A stretch of 64,000 bases of DNA from an uncultured Gilliamella sp. Its GTDB lineage: Bacteria > Pseudomonadota > Gammaproteobacteria > Enterobacterales > Orbaceae. This document shows, one piece after another, positions 9,032 through 19,814 of the stretch. A program made the translations under genes and the position numbers. The notes beneath the pieces are model-generated. The model had not been told where the DNA came from. It was given only the letters and a program-made list of their open reading frames with translations, and ran no database searches. Every line of letters starts with the position of its first letter. The first letter of the stretch is position 1. Location of the stretch: the NCBI GenBank assembly GCA_946482005.1, contig CAMLPV010000005.1:62001-126000 (forward strand). Direction: 5' to 3'.

Positions 9032-9565
9032 TTATTCACTTAACCGCGTTAACAATTGTTGTTGGTAGTTTGATAATTCGTTAGGTTTAACCGCTTGAAA
9101 AACTAATGGCGGTAAATAAGTCATGCCACAATATAAGGCGGAGGCTTTCATTGGTAGAAATATATCGGAAAGTTCTACTCCCAATCGTCCACTGTTACCA
9201 TAGATTGTACTGCCACCACCAGCTGTGGTTACCACTAACATTTCTTTACCTTTCCATATATCTGGCCACCCACCACTCCAAACGCTATTTAAATAAGCCT
9301 TTAGCATTGGGGTGATGTTAAACCAATGTGTCGGGAACATAAAAACGATACGATTGTGCGTTTGCATTAAATGATTTTCTTCATTGACATTAATTGCCCG
9401 AGTATCGAAACCATAATGACTCTCTAAATTACGTAGCGTAATACCTTGTAAACCTTCAGCTACCTGCTGTAAACCTTTGATAAAGGTAGATTGTTCAGGG
9501 TAGGGATGTGACACTATGACTAAGGTCTTTTTATTTGATGTTTTATCAGTAGTGTTTAAAGGCAT
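9032..9565 (-). CDS. NAD(P)H-dependent flavin oxidoreductase, KefF/quinone reductase-like
   Basis: 177-residue flavodoxin-fold protein. Seen: LVIVSHPYPEQSTF at the first beta strand and FMN loop, FMFPTHWFNITPMLKAYL (the family's 'P-x-W' contact with the isoalloxazine ring and the helix after it), and VVTTAGGGSTIYG. Relatives (KefF, MdaB, YwrO, NQO1) reduce quinones by two electrons and protect against electrophiles. A GGGAG ribosome site precedes the ATG. It lies 79 bases downstream of a zinc alcohol dehydrogenase on the same strand, and a LysR gene diverges beyond, so a LysR-controlled electrophile/aldehyde detoxification unit is plausible. Confidence 0.85.
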   Translation of the reverse strand: MPLNTTDKTSNKKTLVIVSHPYPEQSTFIKGLQQVAEGLQGITLRNLESHYGFDTRAINVNEENHLMQTHNRIVFMFPTHWFNITPMLKAYLNSVWSGGWPDIWKGKEMLVVTTAGGGSTIYGNSGRLGVELSDIFLPMKASALYCGMTYLPPLVFQAVKPNELSNYQQQLLTRLSE

Positions 9566-9644
9566 TTGGTATTCTCCCTTTTTATACTATTATCTGCTTT
9601 ATGTTTTTTGACGATTCATTTGGTCTTTAATTTGTCGATCAACT

Positions 9645-10811
9645 CTAAATCGTTGCAATATCAATCACATAACGGAAACGGGCTTTTTTAGCTATCACAT
9701 CTTTCCATGCTTGATTTATTTGCTGCGCGCTGATCAGCTGAATTTGTGGTCGCACTCCGGTTTTAGAACAGAACTCCAAAACCTCTTGGGTTTCAGCAAT
9801 ACCACCAATTAATGAAGCATTAAAATTAACTTGTGAATAGGACATTACAATATTGCTAATATTCAGCATAAAATCTTTACCCATTCCGACAACCGTAAAA
9901 TAACCAAATGGCTTCACGGTGGCTGCGTATTGCGCCGCAGCAAACTGTTCAGGCACAGTGGCAATCATATAATCTAATTTGCCTTTATAAGGTTGTAATT
10001 TACGCAGATCGTCGACGACAATCACTTCTTCTACACCAAGTTTACGGATCTCTGGTTCTTTTTCGGCTGTGGTAGTAAAAGCATAGACTTTGGCTCCTTT
10101 GGCAATCGCAATTTTCACTGCTAAATGTCCTAAGCCGCCAATACCAACTACGCCGATTTTGTCGCCTGATTTAATTTTATATTTCATTAAAGGTGAGTAA
10201 GTAGTTATACCAGCACACAATAAAGGGGCTGCTTCAGGTAAACTAATATTATCAGGAATATGTACCGCAAAATGGTCGCGTACTACGATGTGAGTAGAGT
10301 ACCCTCCTTGGGTAATTGTAGTTGGTTCGCGGTTATCTGGATTACCATAGGTAAATAACGTTGTATCGCAATATTGTTCTAAGCCAGTTTTACAACTATC
10401 ACACTCTAAACAAGAATCGACCATACAACCTATACCAGCACGATCACCTACTTTAAATTTGGTTACCTGTTTGCCGACGGCTGCTACAATGCCGACAATC
10501 TCATGACCGGGTACTTGCGGATAGGTCTGTTTGCCCCAGTCACCTTTTTGTTGATGGATATCTGAATGACAGATGCTAGCATATTTGATTTCGATTAGAA
10601 TATCATTATCACCAACCGGGCGACGCTCAAATTGCCAAAGACGCAGCTCTCCTGATTCATCAAAAGCCGCATAACCTTTTGTTTTCACGTTACCACCTAT
10701 GTAGTGGTAAGTTCTTTGCGATGATGTCTGAGTAGGGCTAGCTAAAGATATTCCCGCTTCAGTAGTCGCAGATAATTTTGCATAATGACGATCAGAAAAT
10801 AATGTGTTCAT
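9645..10811 (-). CDS. Zinc-dependent alcohol dehydrogenase, cinnamyl-ADH/YahK-type
   Basis: 388-residue MDR enzyme that reduces aldehydes with NAD(P)H in the cytoplasm. Catalytic zinc ligands are in ICHSDIHQQKGDWG and VPGHEIVG; the structural zinc cluster is in GCMVDSCLECDSCKTGLEQYC; the Rossmann motif is GVVGIGGLGHLAVKIAIAKG. The N-terminal 45 residues before KGYAAFDESG are an extension not needed for the fold and rich in Ser/Thr; an AAGGAT site before the ATG at 10811 supports the long start. Divergent from the LysR gene with 143 bases between starts. Confidence 0.9.
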   Translation of the reverse strand: MNTLFSDRHYAKLSATTEAGISLASPTQTSSQRTYHYIGGNVKTKGYAAFDESGELRLWQFERRPVGDNDILIEIKYASICHSDIHQQKGDWGKQTYPQVPGHEIVGIVAAVGKQVTKFKVGDRAGIGCMVDSCLECDSCKTGLEQYCDTTLFTYGNPDNREPTTITQGGYSTHIVVRDHFAVHIPDNISLPEAAPLLCAGITTYSPLMKYKIKSGDKIGVVGIGGLGHLAVKIAIAKGAKVYAFTTTAEKEPEIRKLGVEEVIVVDDLRKLQPYKGKLDYMIATVPEQFAAAQYAATVKPFGYFTVVGMGKDFMLNISNIVMSYSQVNFNASLIGGIAETQEVLEFCSKTGVRPQIQLISAQQINQAWKDVIAKKARFRYVIDIATI

Positions 10812-10954
10812 AATAAAATCCTTATCAATAAAGTAACACCAATTGGTTAAATGTTTGGCTTGTTAATTAGTTGCTAAATGCATTGTAATGTGCCCGATGA
10901 TTCCTTAAAATGAATAAAATAAGAAAACACAATTCCTAAAAATGAGATCATGAA

Positions 10955-11848
10955 TTGAATCGTTTAGATGCGTTGAAATATTTTGTGATAGCGGCCGAAG
11001 TGTTAAGTTTTAAAAACACGGCGGCACGATTTTCGGTCTCTCCACAAGTCATTACCAGAATGATTGCCGAGTTAGAGGCGGATTTGGGTGAACCGTTATT
11101 TAAACGAAATACCCGAAGCATTACCTTGACTGATTTTGGTGAGGCATTTTTACCTAAAGCGGTTCGATTTTTGCAGGAAGAAGAACAGTTATTTGGCGCC
11201 TCGAAAAATGCAGAAGATGAACTGCGTGGTACAGTTCGAATAACCTTACCGCCGTATCCCTATTTTGACTGCATTTTATATCCCCTATTGACGGCACTTG
11301 AGCCATATCCACAGATTAACATCGAATGGCGGACGGATTTTGAGATCCTAAAAACCGTAGACGACCAAATCGACATAGGTATTCGCATCAGTAAAACTCC
11401 AGAGGAACATTGGATCGCTAAAAAAATCTGTGTTATGCAAGAGCCGATTGTGGCATCGCCTAAACTCATCGCTCAAACTGGGTTGCCAAAAGATATGTTT
11501 GAATTGGCACAAAAATTTCCGGTTGGTAATATTTTTAATCCGAATAGTGGTAAAGCATGGGATTGGATTATAGGGGACCTACCGATACCGCTGAATAATC
11601 CAAGTGTTGTCACTACTGATTTAACAAGCTTATTGCAAGCGGCCTTGGCTGGTCGAATTTTTGCGCCAATTACCCGCCAAGACTGCCAGTGTTACCTTGA
11701 CTCAGGCGAACTAATAGTTGTGTTTGACAATCACGAAACTGAAATCTGGTCATTTTATCTCTACCGTCCATATCAAACGATAACCCCAAAACGGGTTCTA
11801 TTAGTTTATGAGCTATTAGAAAAAATTTTAGCAGATATAAAATTTTGA
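10955..11848 (+). CDS. LysR-family transcriptional regulator
   Basis: 297 residues beginning with a TTG codon (MNRLDALKYFVIAAEVLSF, a normal LysR start). Winged helix-turn-helix at about 15-60 (TAARFSVSPQVITRMIAELE), then the periplasmic-binding-like effector domain (about 90-290). It is transcribed away from the alcohol dehydrogenase/flavoprotein pair, the usual arrangement for a LysR protein controlling its divergent neighbour. The 143-base gap should hold its operator. Effector unknown; aldehyde or quinone stress is inferred from the neighbours. Confidence 0.9.
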   Translation: MNRLDALKYFVIAAEVLSFKNTAARFSVSPQVITRMIAELEADLGEPLFKRNTRSITLTDFGEAFLPKAVRFLQEEEQLFGASKNAEDELRGTVRITLPPYPYFDCILYPLLTALEPYPQINIEWRTDFEILKTVDDQIDIGIRISKTPEEHWIAKKICVMQEPIVASPKLIAQTGLPKDMFELAQKFPVGNIFNPNSGKAWDWIIGDLPIPLNNPSVVTTDLTSLLQAALAGRIFAPITRQDCQCYLDSGELIVVFDNHETEIWSFYLYRPYQTITPKRVLLVYELLEKILADIKF

Positions 11849-12027: not shown

Positions 12028-12078
12028 TTGTTCGGAATTGTTAATTAAAATATCATTACTCCAAAAGGAGATGGTATG
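12028..12078 (+). promoter_or_regulatory. Shared promoter/inverted-repeat module, site A
   Basis: TTGTTC (12028-12033), 17 bases, TATCAT (12051-12056), then AAAGGAG and the start codon. ATATCAT (12050-12056) is the inverted partner of ATGGTAT (12071-12077), with one G-T pair; the right arm contains the first two bases of the ATG at 12076. The same layout occurs at four other sites (12672, 14068, 14623, 18636). Confidence 0.6.
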
Positions 12079-12444
12079 AAAAAAGTATTATATTATTTGA
12101 CAGTTGTTTTAATTTTTATTTCATTAAATTCGTTTGCTGATGATAAACAAATGCCAATTGATGAGTTAAAAGATATAAATTTTCAAAATGGCGTAACGGC
12201 GAGTGCTAATTGTCATAGTTATTATGTTTTGGGTGAATTATTATTTGATTTAAAAGCCAACGGTGACCCAGAAAACACGATTCAGGGAATTCGTGATACC
12301 TTAGGTAATAAATTTGTGGACGCTATCGTGAATCATGCAACAGATAAACGTGATACCTTTAAAGAAAAGCAATATCTGGACAATAATTATAATGAATGTC
12401 TCGAAAATATAAAGAAAACAGGTGAATTTCAAAAACCATATTGA
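12076..12444 (+). CDS. Small secreted protein of unknown function
   Basis: 122 residues. A signal peptide (MKKVLYYLTVVLIFISLNSFA, cleavage before DDKQ) leads to a short acidic/polar domain with two cysteines (in ASANCHSYY and NYNECLEN) that could form one disulfide. AAAGGAG precedes the ATG. I recognise no family; the size and signal peptide would fit a periplasmic inhibitor or immunity-like protein, but nothing in the sequence proves it. First gene of an accessory island in which several unrelated signal-peptide genes share one upstream module. Confidence 0.7.
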   Translation: MKKVLYYLTVVLIFISLNSFADDKQMPIDELKDINFQNGVTASANCHSYYVLGELLFDLKANGDPENTIQGIRDTLGNKFVDAIVNHATDKRDTFKEKQYLDNNYNECLENIKKTGEFQKPY

Positions 12445-12615
12445 TAAAGGTAAAAATTGGTTGACTATGACTAATTATCAATAAAAACACTTTTTAAGTG
12501 AGATTAGTAATTTATTTAAAACAAACGAGTTATAAAGTGAATCAAAAAAGGAGTTTTAACGATAAAAATGCAATTATTCTTTATCTAAACAATGCTAATT
12601 GTGTTTAGTATTCTA

Positions 12616-12643
12616 GTTTACTGCCGTGTAGATTTAAAACTCT
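12616..12643 (+). repeat. Single degenerate type I-F CRISPR repeat
   Basis: Begins GTTTACTGCCGTGTAG, the first 16 bases of the type I-F-like repeat seen at 15211, 15271 and 19787, then diverges (ATTTAAAACT). The bases before it (TATTCTA) match the flank of the other copies. Single copy, no spacer. Confidence 0.6.
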
Positions 12644-12671
12644 CACAAACCGCCAACAAGACGTTTTTTTA

Positions 12672-12726
12672 TTGCCATTAATCGTTAAATAACATACCAT
12701 TACCAAAAATTAAGGAGAATGGTATG
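12672..12726 (+). promoter_or_regulatory. Shared promoter/inverted-repeat module, site B
   Basis: TTGCCA (12672-12677), 17 bases, TACCAT (12695-12700), AAGGAG, start codon. CATACCAT (12693-12700) and ATGGTATG (12719-12726) are a perfect 8-base inverted repeat; the right arm contains the whole ATG at 12724. Confidence 0.65.
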
Positions 12727-13326
12727 AAGAAATTAATTTTTATTGCAGCTTCGTTTTTTATATGCTCATCTGTTTTAGCTGAAACACAACATCCAGATGC
12801 ACCACTTGGGTTAAAATGGGGCATGACAGCAGCAGAATTGGAGTCTCAAGCTGGCGCCGTATTGCAAACACCAATAGATGATAAAAATGTATCAGTTTAC
12901 TCTTTAAAATCCCCACCAATGACATTGCCTGGATTTACTGAATATTTTGTGTTAGTTCATAAAGATTTAGGTGCGATAAAAATTAGTATGAATCAAGAAA
13001 TAAAATCAGATATATATGGTACTAAAGGTAAAAAAGAATATTTTAAATATAAAGAAGCATTAACAAATAAATTTGGCAAACCTAAAAATTCTTTTGAAAT
13101 TACTGGGTTAAAGATTTACAAAGATAGTGATGAATTTTATCAGTGCTTAAGGTATGATGGATGTGGTTGTTATGCCTCAATCTTTATAGATCATATAACT
13201 TTACTACTAGAGGGGATAGAAAGAGGTAAAGGTAATTTAAACATTACCTATGAATCAGAACTATTTGCAAAATATCAAGCAGATAAAAAAATTGAGAATG
13301 AAAATAAAATTAAAAACGGATTATAG
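12724..13326 (+). CDS. Secreted protein of unknown function
   Basis: 200 residues with a signal peptide (MKKLIFIAASFFICSSVLA, cleavage before ETQH). The mature part starts PDAPLGLKWGMTAAELESQ, a 'W-G-M-T-xx-E' opening found in several families of small enterobacterial periplasmic proteins, and carries a Cys cluster (FYQCLRYDGCGCYAS) and a Lys-rich C terminus. No family assigned. A lipoprotein gene follows after 11 bases, so the two probably share a transcript. Confidence 0.7.
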   Translation: MKKLIFIAASFFICSSVLAETQHPDAPLGLKWGMTAAELESQAGAVLQTPIDDKNVSVYSLKSPPMTLPGFTEYFVLVHKDLGAIKISMNQEIKSDIYGTKGKKEYFKYKEALTNKFGKPKNSFEITGLKIYKDSDEFYQCLRYDGCGCYASIFIDHITLLLEGIERGKGNLNITYESELFAKYQADKKIENENKIKNGL

Positions 13327-13337
13327 TTGGTTGTGAA

Positions 13338-13907
13338 ATGTTAAAACATATAATTTATATTTTTTTATTGCTTTTATTTGTAAGTGGGTGCAATAAACAA
13401 TTATCTGAAGAAGATAAAGCTAAACTGGCAGCATTGAATATCGAGTTAACACAGACAATCGATGATATTAAAGCGACTACCGAAAATTATGAACAATATA
13501 GTGGCGGATTAATAAAATCGATAATTGCTGCGAGACTTGAAGTTTTAAAAACAAACAAAAATTTAGTTGAGCAAAGGATAAACTCCATTGAGACTGGATC
13601 TGCGGTTAAAGTCGAAACCTTAGTTACAAATCCAAACCCTGAACTAGCTGAGCATTTACAAAGCGAAATACAATCAATGAAACAAGAAATTGAGATTGAT
13701 AAAAGTGAAGCTTCAAAATATAGCGGTGGACTGATTCTATCTATGAAGTTAGTGACTATAGCTACTAAAGAACAATCATTAGCTGCGTTGCAACAAAAAT
13801 ATCTTACAGTTAAATATGGTTTAAGTTCTTTACCTAAAGTAGATATTGAAGTACCAAAACCAATAAAAGAAAGTGATCCAAGCGTACCATTAGAAAGTCG
13901 TTTATAA
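13338..13907 (+). CDS. Lipoprotein with an internal duplication, unknown function
   Basis: 189 residues. Signal peptide with lipobox VSGC (Cys at about residue 18) followed by NKQ, so outer-membrane sorting is likely (no Asp at +2). The mature region is helical and contains two related segments, YSGGLIKSIIAARLEVLKT (about 55) and YSGGLILSMKLVTIATKEQ (about 134), which suggests a tandem duplication of a ~75-residue helical unit. C terminus is Pro-rich. It follows the secreted protein at 12724 by 11 bases. Confidence 0.7.
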   Translation: MLKHIIYIFLLLLFVSGCNKQLSEEDKAKLAALNIELTQTIDDIKATTENYEQYSGGLIKSIIAARLEVLKTNKNLVEQRINSIETGSAVKVETLVTNPNPELAEHLQSEIQSMKQEIEIDKSEASKYSGGLILSMKLVTIATKEQSLAALQQKYLTVKYGLSSLPKVDIEVPKPIKESDPSVPLESRL

Positions 13908-13927
13908 CATATTGATTAATATAAATA

Positions 13928-13956
13928 GTCTTACCTGTATACACAGGAATAAACCT
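13928..13956 (+). repeat. Single degenerate type I-E CRISPR repeat
   Basis: 29 bases with core CCTGTATACACAGGAATAAACC, written here in two parts: CCTGTATACACAGG then AATAAACC. It differs from the array repeat at 14896 at a handful of positions. Isolated, with no spacer or neighbouring repeat of the same type. Confidence 0.6.
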
Positions 13957-14011
13957 AGTTTAAATGATAATAGTCTTTTTGAACAATATTTATTGAATAT
14001 ACTTTTCTAAT

Positions 14012-14037
14012 GTTCTGCTGTATAGACAGCTAAAAGT
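14012..14037 (+). repeat. Single degenerate type I-F CRISPR repeat
   Basis: GTTCTGCTGTATAGACAGCT then AAAAG. The stem TGCTGTATAGACAGC and tail fit the type I-F repeat pattern (GTTCACTGCCGTATAGGCAG, then CTAAGAAA) with a two-base deletion. The following TCTCACAAACC also follows the copy at 12616, so a longer intergenic segment was duplicated. Confidence 0.55.
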
Positions 14038-14044
14038 TCTCACA

Positions 14045-14066
14045 AACCACCTTAAGGTGGTTTTTT
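14045..14066 (+). terminator. Rho-independent terminator
   Basis: AACCACC TTAA GGTGGTT followed by T6. Lies downstream of the lipoprotein gene ending at 13907. Confidence 0.75.
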
Positions 14067-14067
14067 A

Positions 14068-14119
14068 TTGTTCAAATTCTGTATATAATATAGCATTACA
14101 CCAACAAGGAGATGTTATG
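14068..14119 (+). promoter_or_regulatory. Shared promoter/inverted-repeat module, site C
   Basis: TTGTTC (14068-14073), 17 bases, TAGCAT (14091-14096), AAGGAG, start codon. ATAGCAT (14090-14096) pairs with ATGTTAT (14112-14118) with one G-U pair: the right arm differs from the other sites (GTT for GGT) and the left arm changes with it. Confidence 0.6.
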
Positions 14120-14575
14120 AAAAGAATTGCGTTGTTAGGTTTGGCTTGTTTCGTTTTGGTTGGCTGCGGTGATAATAGTGGCGGTAAAGTCACTAATGAT
14201 TATCTGGTTGGTGAATGGGATTGTGTCCTCAAACAATATATGAGTAAATATGATTATGACTCTGAAAAATACAGTGATTACGTTGAAACCGATAGCATAT
14301 CAATAATTCAATCGTATAAAATTGTTAATGGAATTTTATTTGAGAAACTTCCGGATCAAGAAGCTAAAGAATTTGATTTGGATAAATTCTATAATAATTT
14401 AAAAGCCAAATATAAAACTCACTATGAAGAACACGATATGAGTAGAAGTTTAGTAAAAAATTCAAATGATAAGTTTACTTTTGAAAATGAATCATTTAGC
14501 ACACTTCAAACCAATCAAATAGAACCGATGAAACTTAAAACTAAAACACTAAGAGTTTGTACAAGAATAAAATAA
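14117..14575 (+). CDS. Small lipoprotein, unknown function
   Basis: 152 residues from the ATG at 14117, chosen because AAGGAG lies 7 bases upstream; a longer frame from 14057 has no ribosome site. Lipobox LVGC (MKRIALLGLACFVLVGCGDN) gives a lipidated Cys followed by Gly-Asp. The mature part starts DYLVGEWDC, reminiscent of lipocalin-like or DUF-type 'GxW' small lipoproteins, and is rich in Lys and Asp. A decayed paralogue follows at 14671. Confidence 0.75.
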   Translation: MKRIALLGLACFVLVGCGDNSGGKVTNDYLVGEWDCVLKQYMSKYDYDSEKYSDYVETDSISIIQSYKIVNGILFEKLPDQEAKEFDLDKFYNNLKAKYKTHYEEHDMSRSLVKNSNDKFTFENESFSTLQTNQIEPMKLKTKTLRVCTRIK

Positions 14576-14600
14576 TCATCTATTGATTAAAATCAGTCCA

Positions 14601-14621
14601 AACCCTCTAATGAGGGTTTTT
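14601..14621 (+). terminator. Rho-independent terminator
   Basis: AACCCTC TAATG... GAGGGTT followed by T5, 25 bases after the lipoprotein stop. Confidence 0.7.
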
Positions 14622-14622
14622 G

Positions 14623-14673
14623 TTGCCAATAATCCTTAACTAACATACTATTACCAAAAAAAGAGATGGTATG
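14623..14673 (+). promoter_or_regulatory. Shared promoter/inverted-repeat module, site D (in front of a pseudogene)
   Basis: TTGCCA (14623-14628), 17 bases, TACTAT (14646-14651), then AAGAG and ATG. CATACTAT pairs with ATGGTATG (14666-14673) with one G-T pair. The module is intact although the gene behind it is broken. Confidence 0.55.
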
Positions 14674-14815
14674 AAAAGAATGGCGTTGTTAGGTTTAGCT
14701 TATCTTATCTTATCTGGCATTGTCTGGCTGAAGTGAGAAAAAAGTCACTTAGGAAATACTGGTAGGTGACTGGGAATGTAGAGGAACTTAGGACGTCATT
14801 AGTTAACCCATCTTT
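14671..14815 (+). pseudogene. Decayed paralogue of the 14117 lipoprotein gene
   Basis: The first codons (MKRMALLGLAYLIL) match those of the 14117 gene almost base for base, and 'GTCACT...ACTGGTAGGTGACTGGGAATG' (two parts) corresponds to its VTNDYLVGEWDC region, but small indels put a stop after about 20 codons and another soon after. No downstream continuation is visible before the CRISPR array. Confidence 0.65.
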
Positions 14816-14895
14816 TGGATGATATTACCGTTAAAAAAGACGGTAGAAATTTCCAACTAATTATTTCAATTATAAAACAATAAGTTATAATTAGA

Positions 14896-15168
14896 GTGTT
14901 CCCTGTATGCACAGGGATAAACCGTTTTGGCCAACAAGTTGGTTTGATTGCATATGGTGTTCCCTGTATGCACAGGGATAAACCGTTTACCTAATAATTT
15001 TAAAATTGATGGGACTTGTGTTCCCTGTATGCACAGGGATAAACCGATTTTAAAAAAGAATCAATAAAAAAGGTGGCAGTGTTCCCTGTATGCACAGGGA
15101 TAAACCGCCGAGAATTTTACTGATACTGTTGATTCAATGGTGTTCCCTGTGCACACAGGGATAAATCG
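14896..15168 (+). CRISPR. Orphan type I-E CRISPR array: 5 repeats, 4 spacers
   Basis: Repeats of 29 bases start at 14896, 14957, 15018, 15079 and 15140; all four spacers are exactly 32 bases. Repeat ends are GTGTTCCCTGTATGCACAGG and GATAAACCG, the type I-E pattern (GTGTTCCC...GGGATAAACCG). The last repeat is altered (GTGCACACAGGG, AAATCG), so the leader and transcription are from the left. Spacers are unique and AT-rich; none matches anything I can see in the window. No cas gene is present within 64 kb, so any function needs cas genes elsewhere. Confidence 0.95.
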
Positions 15169-15210
15169 GATAGCGGTTTCTGAACAAAGTTTATTGTGTA
15201 TAATGTTCTA

Positions 15211-15298
15211 GTTTACTACCGTGCAGGTAGTTTAGAAAAAAATGCCCAGCAATGCCGCTGCACCAACAACGTTTACTGCCGTGTAGGTTGAGTTCCTT
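15211..15298 (+). CRISPR. Type I-F CRISPR remnant: 2 repeats, 1 spacer
   Basis: A 28-base repeat (GTTTACTACCGTGCAGGTAG then TTTAGAAA) at 15211-15238 is followed by exactly 32 bases and then a second copy starting GTTTACTGCCGTGTAGG at 15271 whose 3' half has decayed. Repeat and spacer lengths are those of type I-F. It starts only 42 bases after the last type I-E repeat, and the intervening AT-rich bases (TTTATTGTGTATAATGTTC) recur before the copy at 19787 and may be the end of a type I-F leader. Confidence 0.75.
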
Positions 15299-15323
15299 AT
15301 ATAGGGATATACAGTGAAATAAT

Positions 15324-15665
15324 ATGACCAAAGAACAAGAGTTGATAAAACTAGCTGAAAAACTTGCTTTACTTCCAGATTTCGAAAATCCTTTTCAAAA
15401 ACTTAGCGAATTACTGGAAAATGAGACTGATCACGATATGACAGGAAGGGTAGTAGCATTTTTTAATATAGCAATGGAAGAAAATCTGTTTGGTAAAGAG
15501 AAAAATAAATTAATCAATCAAGCCTCACGACTCATTAACACTTATCCGCTTCCTGATGACGCAGAGGATCAATTGCAGCAAATTATCGACCAAGCTGCCG
15601 ACAAAACGGAAAGGCACATGTTAGCGAGGTTTGCTGAAGCTCTGTTTATTATAAGGAATGAGTAA
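15324..15665 (+). CDS. Hypothetical 113-residue cytoplasmic protein
   Basis: Acidic, helical protein (MTKEQELIKLAEKLALLPDF...) without signal peptide, membrane segment or recognised motif. The ribosome site is weak. It ends in a clean terminator at 15677-15699. It is the first gene inside the block flanked by composite CRISPR repeats; small acidic proteins in such places are sometimes anti-toxin or immunity proteins, but nothing here shows that. Confidence 0.6.
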   Translation: MTKEQELIKLAEKLALLPDFENPFQKLSELLENETDHDMTGRVVAFFNIAMEENLFGKEKNKLINQASRLINTYPLPDDAEDQLQQIIDQAADKTERHMLARFAEALFIIRNE

Positions 15666-15676
15666 TTAATCCACTG

Positions 15677-15699
15677 AACCGCCCTAGTGGCGGTTTTTT
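15677..15699 (+). terminator. Rho-independent terminator
   Basis: AACCGCC CTAGT GGCGGTT followed by T6, 12 bases after the hypothetical gene. Confidence 0.8.
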
Positions 15700-15869
15700 G
15701 ATTAATTAAGTTTTCAAGCCTAAACAAATTCAATTAATAGTTAAAAAAAATTATCAAAATTTGTAAAAAAGATGTGCTGTATAAAAATACACTGTTTGTA
15801 TAAACATAAAGAAAATGCATTCTTATTTATATATAATCATGATTACTGATTATATATTGTGTGTTATTT

Positions 15870-16877
15870 ATGGCTATAGATAGTGGTGGTGCTTATAGTA
15901 TAAGAGGTTTTAATTATCAGAAAGCAGTAATTGCTCAAATTGCTATTAATAATTTTAATGTGGATAATTTTTATATCATTGTTGAAAATCAAGAGGACAT
16001 TGTAGTTTTTTTCTCAGAAAAAAATTTCCACTTGCAAGTAAAAGGGCAAAAATTAAGTATTAAAAGTTTAATTAAAGTTCCGAAGAATAAACAATCGATT
16101 TTATATAAACTTTTAAATAAGGAAGAAAAAGTAGATTATTATAAAGTCGTAACTCTTGATACTTTTAATAAAAAAGATAAAGACGATCTAGACAAATCTA
16201 GTTGTAATATATTCAATAATTGTGTTTATGATTATTCTGAAAAACAAAAGGAAGAATTTTTAAAATGTTTGCAGCAAGAAAATTTATTTTCTGGTGATGA
16301 AGAGAAAATTCAAAATGAATTAAAAAAAACTAAAATAGTTTTTTCTAATTTTAAAAATGATTTATCAGAAGCCGAGCTAATACTTCTCGGTAATATGGCA
16401 AATAAGGGAATCTGTGTAGATAACTATGCAGGAATTAATGCGCTCAATGAGCTATTTAAACAAATAGATTTAAAAAGTGAACAAAAAGCAAGTAATCATA
16501 ATAAAAATATGATCGAAAGTAAAAAAATAACCCAGACAGAACTAAAAAACATTTTTAGACTTTGTAGCGTAATTAGTCAGATACCAAAGCTTAGGATTGA
16601 GATTTTAGAATCATTAGTTGAAGATGAATTACTGAGTAAAAAAGAAAGAAACGATATAAATATGAAATTCTATATGCTTAATAGCAACTTAAGGAGTTTA
16701 AGAGAAGATATATTAGCTAGAATTGCAAGTAGTAATTTCTATATTCAAGAATTAGAAAGTAATGGTTTTTCCTATATACATAGTATTTATCAAAAATTAA
16801 CTGATGATTTTCAAGCAGATATTTATGCCGTTCTTATAGATATTGTTTCGGAAAAGTTTTTGGAGCGTAATAAATGA
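15870..16877 (+). CDS. Putative dsDNA endonuclease (DUF4297/Cap4-like N-terminal domain), defence effector
   Basis: 335 residues from ATG 15870 (a GTG at 15861 is the alternative; neither has a ribosome site). The N terminus has the layout of PD-(D/E)xK nucleases of the DUF4297/Cap4 kind: GGAYSIRGFNYQKAV, then IIVENQEDIVVFF and FHLQVKGQK, giving candidate catalytic residues E39, D43, Q56 and K58. Residues about 225-335 form a separate helical C-terminal domain (KITQTELKNIFRLCSVISQ onward) such as couples effectors to an ABC ATPase. It overlaps the downstream ATPase gene by ATGA. Lamassu (LmuA) and ABC-three-component effectors combine such domains. Function is inferred from this pattern only. 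Very AT-rich, like its partner. Confidence 0.65.
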   Translation: MAIDSGGAYSIRGFNYQKAVIAQIAINNFNVDNFYIIVENQEDIVVFFSEKNFHLQVKGQKLSIKSLIKVPKNKQSILYKLLNKEEKVDYYKVVTLDTFNKKDKDDLDKSSCNIFNNCVYDYSEKQKEEFLKCLQQENLFSGDEEKIQNELKKTKIVFSNFKNDLSEAELILLGNMANKGICVDNYAGINALNELFKQIDLKSEQKASNHNKNMIESKKITQTELKNIFRLCSVISQIPKLRIEILESLVEDELLSKKERNDINMKFYMLNSNLRSLREDILARIASSNFYIQELESNGFSYIHSIYQKLTDDFQADIYAVLIDIVSEKFLERNK

Positions 16878-18529
16878 TTATTAAGCGTTTTGTTATTGTT
16901 GACTTAAATAATGGATTAGCTAATGAGTTCAATTTTTCACCTAACTCAAATGTTATATTTTCCAGAAATGGTACTGTAGGTAAATCAAGTTTGCTAAAAT
17001 CAATTTATTATTGTCTAGGAATGAACATAAAAAATTTCACTAAAACTTGGAATTATAACCAAATGATTTTTAAGGTTTATTTTAGTCATAATAATCAGGA
17101 TGGATGGATAATACGTCATAAAAATTTTTATAAGGTCTATGATACTGACGCTCCCTTAAGTGAGTCGGAATATTCTAGATGGTTTACCAAACTGTTAGAT
17201 ATGCAAATTAAAATTCGCATCAAAGATAGTGAAAATCTAAGTCAAGTTCATGCGGCTGCAATTCTTAGCTTATTTTATGTTGATCAAGATTCATCTTGGA
17301 AAGGAGTACCATTTAGAAATACAGCTAATTTAAATTGGTATAACTCAAATGATATGCCACAATCTATTTTTGAATATGTTCTAAAATTAAAAAGTAATGA
17401 ACATCTTGAAAAAGAAGAGAAAAGGGGAATATTAAAAAATGATCTTAGTCAATTAAAAAATACTTGCAACTCATTGATAGCACTAAAAGATCAGTTTATT
17501 TTAACGGATAAAAGAAATTTAGTTTTAGATGAAGATGGTTTTAAAGAAGATTTGAAGAAGTTTTTATTAATACTTGAATCTCTTAATGATAAGATTTCCA
17601 CTTACAATGAACAAATATATAAAAAGCAAGTTAAATTAGATTCTCTTAAATTAGAACTAAGAGAACTTAATGATATATTAAAATGTAATGATAAGTTGTA
17701 TAAAAATAACTCAATCAAATGTAGTAAATGTAATTCCTTCCTGACAGAACAACAATCTGAAGAAAGAATGAAACTAGATTATAGTTCTTTTTTATTATCT
17801 CTTAATATTAAGGAGATAAAATTAAAAATAAACGAAGCTGAACAAAGCGTAAGATCTTTGTTGGATAAAAAATTAGGGCTTGATAAAGAATATAATAAAT
17901 TATCTAAACAACTACAAATGAAATCAAGTAGATCATCTATTAATGAATTTATCCAAAGTTTAGGCGAAGCAACATCTCAAGATAAATATTATAAAATACT
18001 AGGTGATTTAGAAATTAAAAGATCTAATATTGAAGATGAAATAAAAAAATTAAATACAGAAATAAATGAATTGACTAAAGAACAAAATAATAGGCGATCT
18101 GAAATAGATTCGTATTTTAATGATACTTTCAATAAACTAGCTAGCAACTTACCATCCGTAGATCGTGATTTTAAATTTTTAAAATTTAATCAAATTAAAA
18201 ATAGTGGTTCAGCATTAAACCAAATATTTTTAGTTATTTATTTAACTTATATAAAAATATTAATGGAATATTCTTCTGTTGAACTACCTTTTGTCATGGA
18301 TTCGATAATAAAAGATGAGCTTGATGGTGATGTATTATCAGGGGCTTATTCTCTTGTTAATAAAATCTTTTTATCGTCCAAAAAACAAACTTTTTTTGCG
18401 GCTCTTGATGATAAGTTTCAATATTTAACTGGTAGATGTAACAAAATTGAGATTAAAAGTGATCAGAAACTTTTAAATAAAGAAAGTTTTGATAGATTAA
18501 AAAAAGAAATTGGTTTGCTTAATGTTTAA
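16874..18529 (+). CDS. Rad50/SMC-like ABC ATPase with zinc-hook CxxC, defence-type
   Basis: 551 residues. N terminus: Walker A in SRNGTVGKSSLLKSIYYCLG (G36-K37-S38), with Arg31 where the first P-loop Gly normally sits. The centre is a long coiled coil broken by KCSKCNSF (Cys283, Cys286), a single CxxC at the apex as in Rad50 zinc hooks. C terminus: NSGSALNQIFLVIYLT in place of the ABC signature, then LPFVMDSIIKDELD as Walker B, with Ser rather than Glu right after the Asp. Similar ATPases partner nucleases in Lamassu (LmuB) and ABC-three-component systems. A third, middle component is not found on either side. ATGA overlap with the nuclease implies coupled translation. Confidence 0.75.
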   Translation: MIIKRFVIVDLNNGLANEFNFSPNSNVIFSRNGTVGKSSLLKSIYYCLGMNIKNFTKTWNYNQMIFKVYFSHNNQDGWIIRHKNFYKVYDTDAPLSESEYSRWFTKLLDMQIKIRIKDSENLSQVHAAAILSLFYVDQDSSWKGVPFRNTANLNWYNSNDMPQSIFEYVLKLKSNEHLEKEEKRGILKNDLSQLKNTCNSLIALKDQFILTDKRNLVLDEDGFKEDLKKFLLILESLNDKISTYNEQIYKKQVKLDSLKLELRELNDILKCNDKLYKNNSIKCSKCNSFLTEQQSEERMKLDYSSFLLSLNIKEIKLKINEAEQSVRSLLDKKLGLDKEYNKLSKQLQMKSSRSSINEFIQSLGEATSQDKYYKILGDLEIKRSNIEDEIKKLNTEINELTKEQNNRRSEIDSYFNDTFNKLASNLPSVDRDFKFLKFNQIKNSGSALNQIFLVIYLTYIKILMEYSSVELPFVMDSIIKDELDGDVLSGAYSLVNKIFLSSKKQTFFAALDDKFQYLTGRCNKIEIKSDQKLLNKESFDRLKKEIGLLNV

Positions 18530-18612
18530 TCACTATACTTATTTCATTAAGCTATCTAAATTAATTTTAGATATAAAATATACATAGATATTTATTGTAT
18601 TTTAAATATTCT

Positions 18613-18634
18613 AACTCGCTTCGGCGGGTTTTTT
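18613..18634 (+). terminator. Rho-independent terminator
   Basis: AACTCGC TTCG GCGGGTT followed by T6, about 85 bases after the ATPase gene. Confidence 0.75.
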
Positions 18635-18635
18635 A

Positions 18636-18686
18636 TTGCCCAAACCTCTTAAATAACATACCATTACCAAAAAAGGAGATGGTATG
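18636..18686 (+). promoter_or_regulatory. Shared promoter/inverted-repeat module, site E
   Basis: TTGCCC (18636-18641), 17 bases, TACCAT (18659-18664), AAGGAG, start codon. CATACCAT (18657-18664) and ATGGTATG (18679-18686) form a perfect 8-base inverted repeat; the right arm contains the ATG at 18684. Confidence 0.65.
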
Positions 18687-19712
18687 AAAAAGATATTATG
18701 TTATTTAATGCTGGTTTTAACTTGTATTTCATTTGATTCGTTGGGCGCTGTAAAAAAAGAAAAATATAATCCCGAAGGTAAAGAGATGTTCATTTTTAAT
18801 GAATATGATTCTTCTGCTATTGGACGTAAGGTGTATGGCGGATTATATACCTCTCCAAATATAAATTCATTATATTATCCACCATACAAAAAATATAAAG
18901 GAATGGAAGGTTATTTGGATAAAGAAGTTAAAGTTGGACGTGATACATATCAGAAAATAATTTTAAAAAACGGGGAGGTTTTTTATCTTTCTGACTTAAA
19001 ATATTATTATGGATTTGAAAGCCTTAAAAACTATAAAAAACGGTTAGAGCAAATTGAGAAGTTTAAAAATATTAAATTTCCTAATATAGATGAATTATCA
19101 GTAACAGAAGTTGTAACAGAATCAAAAGATATTTATATAATTACGTTTTCAAATGGTCAAAAGCTATATAATGAGCAACTAGAAGGACTTTTACAGTTAT
19201 CTAAAAAAATAACAGATGCAAATGACTTTCGCCAATTGCTTAATGCTATTAATACAAAAAATATACATTTTTCATATGACCCAATTGATAATTTAGCGAA
19301 AATTAAGCTAGATAGTGATTATTTAAAAATATACATATCAATTCTTAAAGAAAGAGTTTATCTAACAACAGTTCAAGTTATTTGTAGTAGCTATGATGGA
19401 ATTTCAGTTAAGAATTTCAAAATATATCAAAGCAGCAATACATATAATTCTCCTAGTGATCTTACATTTAAAAGAGAATATGGCAGCTATGTCTATGAGT
19501 GGTATAACTTTATATTGAATAATGAATTTATTTCATATATCAATTCACTTGATGATACCCAAGACGCCATTATTAGATTTTACGGTTTGAAAAGAAATCG
19601 TGATGATAATATAGATTCAAAATCTATTTCTGAAATAAAAAAGATACTCGCTTTAAATGAAACATTAGCTAAGTATTTAAAGTTTGCAAGTGATAATGAA
19701 ACAATTAAATAA
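18684..19712 (+). CDS. Secreted protein of unknown function
   Basis: 342 residues with a signal peptide (MKKILCYLMLVLTCISFDS, cleavage near LGA). The mature protein is Tyr/Lys-rich. An N-terminal stretch (VKVGRDTYQKIILKNGEVFY) looks SH3-like and a similar 'xxITFSNGQKLY' unit follows near residue 160. No family recognised. It uses the same upstream module as the genes at 12076, 12724 and 14117 and ends two bases before a type I-E-like repeat. Confidence 0.7.
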   Translation: MKKILCYLMLVLTCISFDSLGAVKKEKYNPEGKEMFIFNEYDSSAIGRKVYGGLYTSPNINSLYYPPYKKYKGMEGYLDKEVKVGRDTYQKIILKNGEVFYLSDLKYYYGFESLKNYKKRLEQIEKFKNIKFPNIDELSVTEVVTESKDIYIITFSNGQKLYNEQLEGLLQLSKKITDANDFRQLLNAINTKNIHFSYDPIDNLAKIKLDSDYLKIYISILKERVYLTTVQVICSSYDGISVKNFKIYQSSNTYNSPSDLTFKREYGSYVYEWYNFILNNEFISYINSLDDTQDAIIRFYGLKRNRDDNIDSKSISEIKKILALNETLAKYLKFASDNETIK

Positions 19713-19714
19713 GT

Positions 19715-19743
19715 GTGTTCCCTGTATGCACAGGAATAAACTA
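19715..19743 (+). repeat. Single type I-E CRISPR repeat, right flank of the defence block
   Basis: GTGTTCCCTGTATGCACAGG then AATAAACTA; near-identical to the array repeats except at the 3' end. It is followed after 43 bases by a type I-F repeat, copying the order at 15140-15238. Confidence 0.75.
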
Positions 19744-19786
19744 TGCAATCAGTTTCTAAACAAAGTTTATTGTGTATAATGTTCTA

Positions 19787-19814
19787 GTTTACTGCCATGT
19801 AAGCTATTTAGAAA
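19787..19814 (+). repeat. Single type I-F CRISPR repeat, right flank of the defence block
   Basis: GTTTACTGCCATGTAAGCTA then TTTAGAAA, a 28-base type I-F-like repeat. The upstream AACAAAGTTTATTGTGTATA plus ATGTTCTA is identical to the bases before the repeat at 15211, so 19715-19814 and 15140-15238 are direct repeats of about 100 bases. Confidence 0.7.

Follow-up and report, generated by a model that had tools for sequence, protein, structure and literature searches.

Prophages are known to carry defence hotspots, in which accessory anti-phage genes lie at fixed positions of the phage genome. Other systems close to the one described here are the morons and superinfection exclusion genes, such as those for HK97 gp15, TP-J34 Ltp and the mEpimmI lipoprotein Lpp, which are extra genes of temperate phages encoding exported, membrane or lipoproteins. 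The lipoprotein genes of mEpimmI belong to its structural cluster, and their expression leads to the exclusion of phages (PMC11893012), the exclusion by Ltp and gp15 can be overcome by changes in the tape measure or the tail (PMC10883804), and the presence of a promoter and a terminator is taken as the character of a moron (PMC3952083). The Sulfolobales viruses SPV1/2 possess mini-arrays of clustered regularly interspaced short palindromic repeats (CRISPR) without Cas, with spacers against related viruses, for which superinfection exclusion was proposed and alongside which mini-arrays in bacteriophages and prophages are mentioned (PMC6858448), and Clostridioides difficile prophages carry CRISPR arrays, few of them reported with a cas gene (PMC10778935). 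The stretch analysed here, called the window, comprises 64,000 nucleotides (positions 62001-126000 of contig C5, CAMLPV010000005.1) of an uncultured Gilliamella sp., a bacterium of the bee gut, whose assembly (GCA_946482005.1) has 2.5 Mb and is 81% complete. Five of its sites share one 5' leader and are likely to be the 5' ends of moron-type cassettes of Gilliamella prophages, now residing in a chromosomal defence island, with products that would serve the exclusion of one phage by another.

Compared to the morons mentioned above, the Gilliamella genes differ in that 18 BLASTP groups stand on one homologous leader, interleaved with Cas-less CRISPR arrays and present outside prophages as well. 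As in SPV1/2, Cas-less arrays with spacers against related viruses occur in viral genomes; however, those of Gilliamella reach up to 15 repeats, are located in the tail module, combine types I-E and I-F and are linked to exported-protein cassettes. The prophages of C. difficile likewise bear arrays, but host and repeats are different, and no exported-gene leader shared among them is described in the portion of that report available. Regarding the defence hotspots, the Septu genes PtuA and PtuB are found beside the prophage cassettes in the tail region (9230-11212 in locus L178 and 12579-14564 in L139), the position being different, around the tape-measure gene. Among the Gilliamella papers listed for prophages and for CRISPR, no title or abstract opening gives an account of such cassettes, nor does the available part of PMC10259446.

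The five sites, whose TTG is located at 12028, 12672, 14068, 14623 and 18636, were all read directly, and the single promoter geometry attributed to them in the preliminary description is present in each one: a -10-like box 17 base pairs (bp) past the TTG, followed by a purine-rich ribosome site and the ATG. Four of the genes behind are intact and fall into four separate BLASTP groups, and the one behind 14623 is a relic, with 21 codons until the stop. A search model based on the sequence only and built from 13 leaders detected 98 loci (E<1e-3), distributed over 29 of the 35 Gilliamella genomes, and the window's own assembly has further leaders on contigs C1, C6, C11 and C20. The leader is a homologous family, and for this reason, not because of any palindrome as such, the pattern stands far above chance; being genus-wide and on several contigs, it is not one recent tandem family, a point on which the preliminary description had made its proposal depend. 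An order-wide draw of 295 genomes, with stricter filters, gave 19 with a leader match at E<=0.001, comprising 16 Gilliamella, one genome of another Orbaceae genus and two of other families with single weak matches. The genome from the other genus (G134) holds four leader matches, the best at E 1e-11, so that the leader crosses genera.

Before the arms were counted, two of the 98 loci were set aside, their matched stretch containing no start, and eight starts and two left arms among the remaining 96 were corrected by hand. The TTG lies exactly 17 bp from TAnnAT in 88/96 loci, partly as a result of selection, the model having been trained on such leaders, and the bases around the box (the left arm) are nearly invariant at the T, A, A and T of TAnnAT (95, 94, 95 and 95 of 96), the other positions varying more. 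Judged on sequence, each cassette would thus have its own sigma-70-type promoter, TTG-N17-TAnnAT. Promoter-like sites in the window region are no commoner than in shuffles (41 against 50.6), and terminator-like hairpins number five against 2.1 expected, two of them running directly into the leaders at 14068 and 18636. The conservation of this non-consensus -10 box, with a C at arm position 5 in 86/96 and a C or T at position 6 in 95/96, a flanking C in 82/96 and a flanking A in 85/96, could also come from a host regulon, in which a chromosomal regulator binds CATACYATTA around the box and controls exported-protein genes, the phages having adopted the site. Descent from a single leader explains it equally well, however, and the second arm, around the start codon, is most conserved at its ATG and less so away from it; no candidate regulator was found, none having been sought, and such a regulon is quite unlikely.

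As for the genes behind the leader, 14 of the 96 frames are shorter than 30 amino acids, and all of the other 82 have export features (58 a lipobox, 18 other signal-peptide features and six a hydrophobic N-terminus, as called by simple heuristics and not SignalP), which bears out the description of these genes as encoding secreted proteins in every frame that could be judged. The background is 7/46 open reading frames in the window and 69/394 in the flanks, some of the latter being perhaps cassette genes themselves. The mature parts of the 79 proteins with at least 60 amino acids form 18 BLASTP groups, the largest with 32 members; at the profile level the groups are perhaps fewer than 18, as groups 6 and 7 share the PHROGs family phrog_1848. 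The first 60 coding bases have a mean identity of 49% between groups, compared to 40% when cassette genes are set against other exported genes and 38% within the latter (43%, 36% and 34% without the first three codons), and the mature parts are 30% identical between groups. Leader and signal peptide thus seem to travel together in front of mature parts that differ, a modest effect, suggesting a way in which the mature protein can be replaced with promoter and signal peptide kept in use.

The location of the cassettes in prophages suggests where they come from. Genome G006 has two similar prophages, with tape-measure proteins 90% identical, in which one leader precedes unrelated exported genes; as far as shown, the DNA before it agrees fully at one pair and almost fully at the other. 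Directly upstream lie a tape-measure gene and a member of a phage gene family with no assigned function, with minor and major tail genes nearby. These two tail regions are found in opposite orientations on one chromosome (C1, about 58000-71000 on the minus strand and 2225000-2238000 on the plus strand). That upstream DNA inherited as a block could account for the similarity had been foreseen in the preliminary description and largely holds; the block accompanies unrelated genes, and its phage origin had not been foreseen there. A tape-measure-like 3' end (LN[RK]R-stop) directly precedes 13 of the 98 leaders. When six phage-gene queries were applied to 40 wide flanks, holding 60 leader sites, 25/60 sites had a match within 6 kb and 17/60 a match other than the antirepressor, and 29/98 loci have either the tape-measure end or a phage gene within this distance. 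Such neighbours are named by PHROGs as tape measure, major tail, minor tail and antirepressor.

In addition, six IMG/VR contigs contain the leader, half of them found via the group 4 protein and half via the leader pattern. The viral contig L178 has, in this order, the tape measure, a leader, a group 2 gene, a second leader, a group 4 gene, a lipoprotein of 189 amino acids, an antirepressor-like gene, six I-F repeats and Septu PtuAB; the pair at 12724 and 13338 of the window recurs there in the same order, with 82% and 95% identity. Probably L178 is the same prophage as those of G043 (L151) and L181, which have the same layout, and so the three are not independent cases. Among 14 cassette proteins scanned against PHROGs, six have matches at E<1e-5 (phrog_28385, phrog_890, phrog_1353, phrog_1848 twice and phrog_20018). 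A search of phage records for distantly related DNA with one leader gave at most 36% query coverage among the best 20 of 255 matches, all at the terminator end, and no match came from a protein search with group 1 or from the scan of viral contigs with the same group. In the prophage members the cassettes lie between genes of the phage's own operons; for the window copies, no such phage gene is now seen with the six queries.

CRISPR arrays often adjoin the leader as well, repeats being found within 3 kb of it in 18/40 flanks. For 18/60 leaders, in 13/40 flanks, a same-strand repeat with no more than 6 mismatches has its end in the 350 bp upstream, compared to 182/8000 (2%) of random places in these flanks, and at 8 mismatches the values are 21/60 and 206/8000. 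The window's assembly has 32 I-E repeat matches on four contigs, and on C1, C5 and C20 an I-E repeat, which on C5 is lone and degenerate, is separated from a following leader of the same strand by about 90 to 110 bases. A succession of I-E and then I-F repeats across a similar linker is seen twice in the window and also in L139 and L171, arrays stand between tail genes in L139, L147 and L158, and among viral genomes there are, besides the six I-F repeats of L178, repeats in L211 and L212. Regarding the cas genes, which were sought as Cas6e and Cas6f in each genome and not in viral contigs, Cas6e is present in 19/35 and Cas6f in 21/35 Gilliamella genomes. The only Cas6e match of the window's genome is on contig C4, beside the C4 array, and Cas6f was not found in this incomplete assembly, although I-F repeats occur on C3, C5 and C7. 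A different layout is seen in L194 (G011:C1:607000-624000), where no leader was found and two similar units of about 4 kb carry I-E arrays, a protein of 425 amino acids and small open reading frames, with a third array at the same spacing.

The spacers point to other phages as targets. Out of 340 unique spacers from the fetched loci, 22 match another fetched stretch over their full length with at most 6 mismatches, an overlap artefact (L138 to L196, zero mismatches, one genome) having been removed, compared to one of 340 shuffled spacers. The best target lies in a locus with a phage match for 21 of the 22, in a target set consisting of the fetched loci, which is rich in prophage tails and not an even sample, and for 13 of the 22 the locus of origin has a leader too; none of the 22 is one of the four window spacers. 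AAG adjoins 8/17 I-E targets and CC 3/5 I-F targets, these being the motifs of the two types. Rival viruses are targeted by the array of L151, against L139 (0 mismatches, CC) and L142 (3, CC), and by those of L142, against L147 (2 mismatches, AAG) and L149 (4, CC). In L139, the spacers at 9185 and 9368 match the tape-measure gene of L139 itself at 4 and 5 mismatches, which looks like the result of a divergence of the target.

The likely explanation of the five sites as prophage cassettes for exclusion among phages is based on this leader family, the export signals, the places in prophage tail modules, the adjacency of arrays and the spacer matches. Each cassette would comprise a promoter, a ribosome site after a very short untranslated leader, and a gene for an exported protein, most often a lipoprotein, and a terminator could close the preceding unit, where a Cas-less CRISPR array would often stand too. 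Having its own promoter, the gene would stay active in the lysogen whatever the state of the phage late operon. The most likely role of the exported proteins, judged by their place and company, is to exclude other phages at the envelope, and the arrays would lend CRISPR RNAs to host Cas proteins against the same rivals. If the arrays do use host Cas proteins, whose Cas6e and Cas6f vary among strains, dual arrays would be an adaptation to mixed hosts. In a further-reaching and rather doubtful version, offered as tentative, this is a modular cassette of inter-phage warfare, in which unrelated exclusion proteins are swapped behind a fixed module of promoter and signal peptide, joined to Cas-less arrays, I-E and then I-F, that serve hosts with either Cas system, and which moves between prophage tape-measure loci and chromosomal islands, where the host keeps it as defence. 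In the likely explanation given first, a single movable unit would already unite two ways in which phages exclude each other, by exported proteins and by borrowed CRISPR immunity, and the leader would be a sequence handle for finding candidate exclusion proteins of phages, so far unstudied, in a gut symbiont.

Several results weigh against the prophage-cassette explanation. Neither a phage match nor a tape-measure end was seen at 69/98 loci, with wide flanks for 60 sites and six queries; some of the antirepressor matches are short fragments, and the six queries match nothing in the window, so that its cassettes are not visibly in a prophage now. Those 69 loci, and some cassettes among genes that by eye look ordinary and chromosomal, would agree with an origin as chromosomal secreted-protein genes (e.g., colonisation factors) under a shared promoter, sometimes taken up by prophages. 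This is unlikely, as L150, L153 and L154, among the twelve wide-flank loci with a tape-measure 3' end, keep that end without any other phage-query match in the flank, pointing to a movement from phage to chromosome (two of the three adjoin I-E arrays), and five PHROGs phage families match cassette proteins. Also unfavourable to a prophage exclusion cassette are the fourteen short frames, the lack of a convincing PADLOC match for the exported proteins tested (the one at 13338 reaching E 0.01) and the lack of any PHROGs family for groups 1 and 2, with 8 of the 14 scanned proteins unmatched at E<1e-5. The fold predicted for group 1, all-beta with a mean predicted local distance difference test (pLDDT) score of 89, found nothing in the PDB at E<=0.001 and eight viral matches with template modelling scores (TM-scores) of at most 0.42, one of them a lipocalin-like phage protein, and the structure model of group 4 is poor. 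Speaking against an exclusive link of array and leader are the many arrays that have no leader, as well as L147 and L173, in which the array stands on the downstream side of the cassette. Out of 14 loci fetched for their arrays, mostly chosen for having no strong leader, two had a leader at E<0.001, and these two were known before. Two of the four window spacers, sought by an exact core of 20 or 21 bases, have no match in the viral contigs.

The preliminary description had further considered the left arm and the bases around the start codon (the right arm) as an inverted repeat, acting either as an operator or as a hairpin that hides the start, for which no convincing support was obtained. The arms CATACCAT/ATGGTATG are perfect at 12672 and 18636, and no further exact match with arms 5-30 bases apart exists in the 2.5 Mb assembly (a control pattern gave 0). 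At 14068, the pairing with one G-U stands for the 7-base left arm originally given, whereas the 8-base arms TATAGCAT/ATGTTATG have two wobbles; the arms at 12028, AATATCAT/ATGGTATG, have one unpaired position and one wobble, and those at 14623 one wobble. All eight positions are standard pairs at 49/96 loci and Watson-Crick pairs at 28/96, 22 of these with the letters of the window and six with CATACTAT/ATAGTATG. These 28 loci with perfect 8-bp arms would be in line with a DNA operator made by the two arms; nevertheless, the arms are 14-32 bases apart in 94/96 loci (undefined in two), instead of the fixed half-site spacing expected of a dimer operator, which is unsuited to a rigid dimer, and the right arm has changed without the left in 8 of 29 independent close pairs, making an operator hardly credible. 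In the same pairs the left arm alone has changed in five, both in eight and neither in eight; in three of the eight with both changed, as read from the listed arms, one position differs on both sides and still pairs.

In the hairpin alternative, transcription would come from further up and the left arm would cover the start codon in the RNA. Shuffling the right arms among loci lowers the standard pairs from 89.8% to 88.8% (p 0.003) and the Watson-Crick pairs from 83.6% to 82.3% (p 0.017), and in the model alignment 90.6% of cells pair compared to 89.7% in shuffles (5/500 as high), 13 cells are changed on both sides compared to 8.5 (16/500) and the covariation score is 0.110 compared to 0.094 (3/500), the slid helices pairing in 16 to 45% of cells, as expected of a consensus palindrome. 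These slight excesses are in favour of a hairpin, together with the eight standard pairs at about half of the loci and the letters at arm position 6 versus position 3 (12 TA, 29 TG, 5 CA and 44 CG; Fisher p 0.030), the main source of the excess in pairing. However, the excess amounts to one percentage point, which relatedness alone can produce, unpaired cells are common at several pairs (13, 9, 11, 21, 9 and 6 of about 95) and two window leaders have a terminator-like hairpin directly upstream. Moreover, if TTG-N17-TAnnAT is the promoter, transcription would start 3' of the left arm, which would not be in the RNA. The covariation proposed across loci is reduced to one of eight arm pairs, with p=0.11 after stratifying by leader class; one other pair has any two-sided change, the remaining six have one-sided or unpaired cells only, and most changes are uncompensated. 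With a weak association at one pair, a start-hiding hairpin is very improbable, and the inverted repeat is probably incidental to the -10 box and the ATG. The association between positions 6 and 3 in the 96 leaders remains as a weak one, clearly explained neither by the promoter nor by descent.

At 12071-12079 of the window, and at the equivalent spots of other leaders, ATGGTATGA forms a two-codon start-stop frame overlapping the ATG of the gene; this upstream frame (ATG GTA TGA across the ATG) is absent from loci such as L018. Exact palindromes were also met in other families and left uncounted: L003 and L004, which were read, and G039, seen as a match only, have no leader by eye, and the palindromes of L007, L009, L010 and L011 seem to be part of coding regions.

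Table 1. Leaders, cassette genes, CRISPR repeats and defence genes of the window (positions within the window; aa, amino acids).
Feature	Position	Strand	Evidence or remark
Leader 1: -35 TTGTTC 12028-12033, 17 bp, -10 TATCAT 12051-12056	12028..12078	+	Family match G000:C5:74020-74083, E 5.5e-14
Leader 1 arms: left 12049-12056, right 12071-12078	12049..12078	+	ATG 12076
Exported protein, 122 aa, group 10	12076..12444	+	No family listed by Pfam, PADLOC or NCBIfam
Degenerate type I-F CRISPR repeat directly before leader 2	12616..12643	+	Weak: 10 mismatches to the repeat string used
Leader 2: TTGCCA, 17 bp, TACCAT 12695-12700; perfect arms 12693-12700, 12719-12726	12672..12726	+	E 6.0e-18; ATG 12724
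Exported protein, 200 aa, group 4 (phrog_28385)	12724..13326	+	PHROGs E 3.8e-32; copy with 82% identity in viral contig L178
Lipoprotein, 189 aa, next gene in the 12724 cassette	13338..13907	+	95% identical to the L178 protein that adjoins its group 4 copy
Degenerate type I-E CRISPR repeat behind the 12724/13338 cassette	13928..13956	+	5 mismatches
Terminator-like hairpin and T-run reaching into leader 3	14044..14066	+	
Leader 3: TTGTTC, 17 bp, TAGCAT 14091-14096; arms 14089-14096, 14112-14119	14068..14119	+	E 1.9e-14; ATG 14117
Group 1 lipoprotein of 152 aa with a predicted all-beta fold (32 members in the group)	14117..14575	+	
Leader 4: TTGCCA, 17 bp, TACTAT 14646-14651; relic gene behind	14623..14673	+	E 2.2e-16; ATG 14671
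Type I-E CRISPR array, 5 repeats, 4 spacers, no adjoining cas gene	14896..15168	+	
Two type I-F CRISPR repeats 3' of the I-E array: 15211-15238, degenerate 15271-15298	15211..15298	+	
Lamassu-type defence pair: LmuA 15861-16877, LmuB 16874-18529	15861..18529	+	PADLOC E 2.4e-48 and 2.3e-127
Terminator-like hairpin and T-run reaching into leader 5	18613..18634	+	
Leader 5: TTGCCC, 17 bp, TACCAT 18659-18664; perfect arms 18657-18664, 18679-18686	18636..18686	+	E 2.1e-19; ATG 18684
Exported protein, 342 aa, group 2	18684..19712	+	36% identical to the copy behind the L178 tape-measure gene
Relic dual array: one I-E repeat 19715-19743, then one I-F repeat 19787-19814	19715..19814	+	

Among the neighbouring genes, the Lamassu-type pair LmuA/LmuB sits between cassettes of the window. 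An open reading frame of 113 amino acids at 15324-15665, for which no family scores above its curated cut-off, lies between the CRISPR repeats and this pair and is followed by a terminator-like site at 15676.

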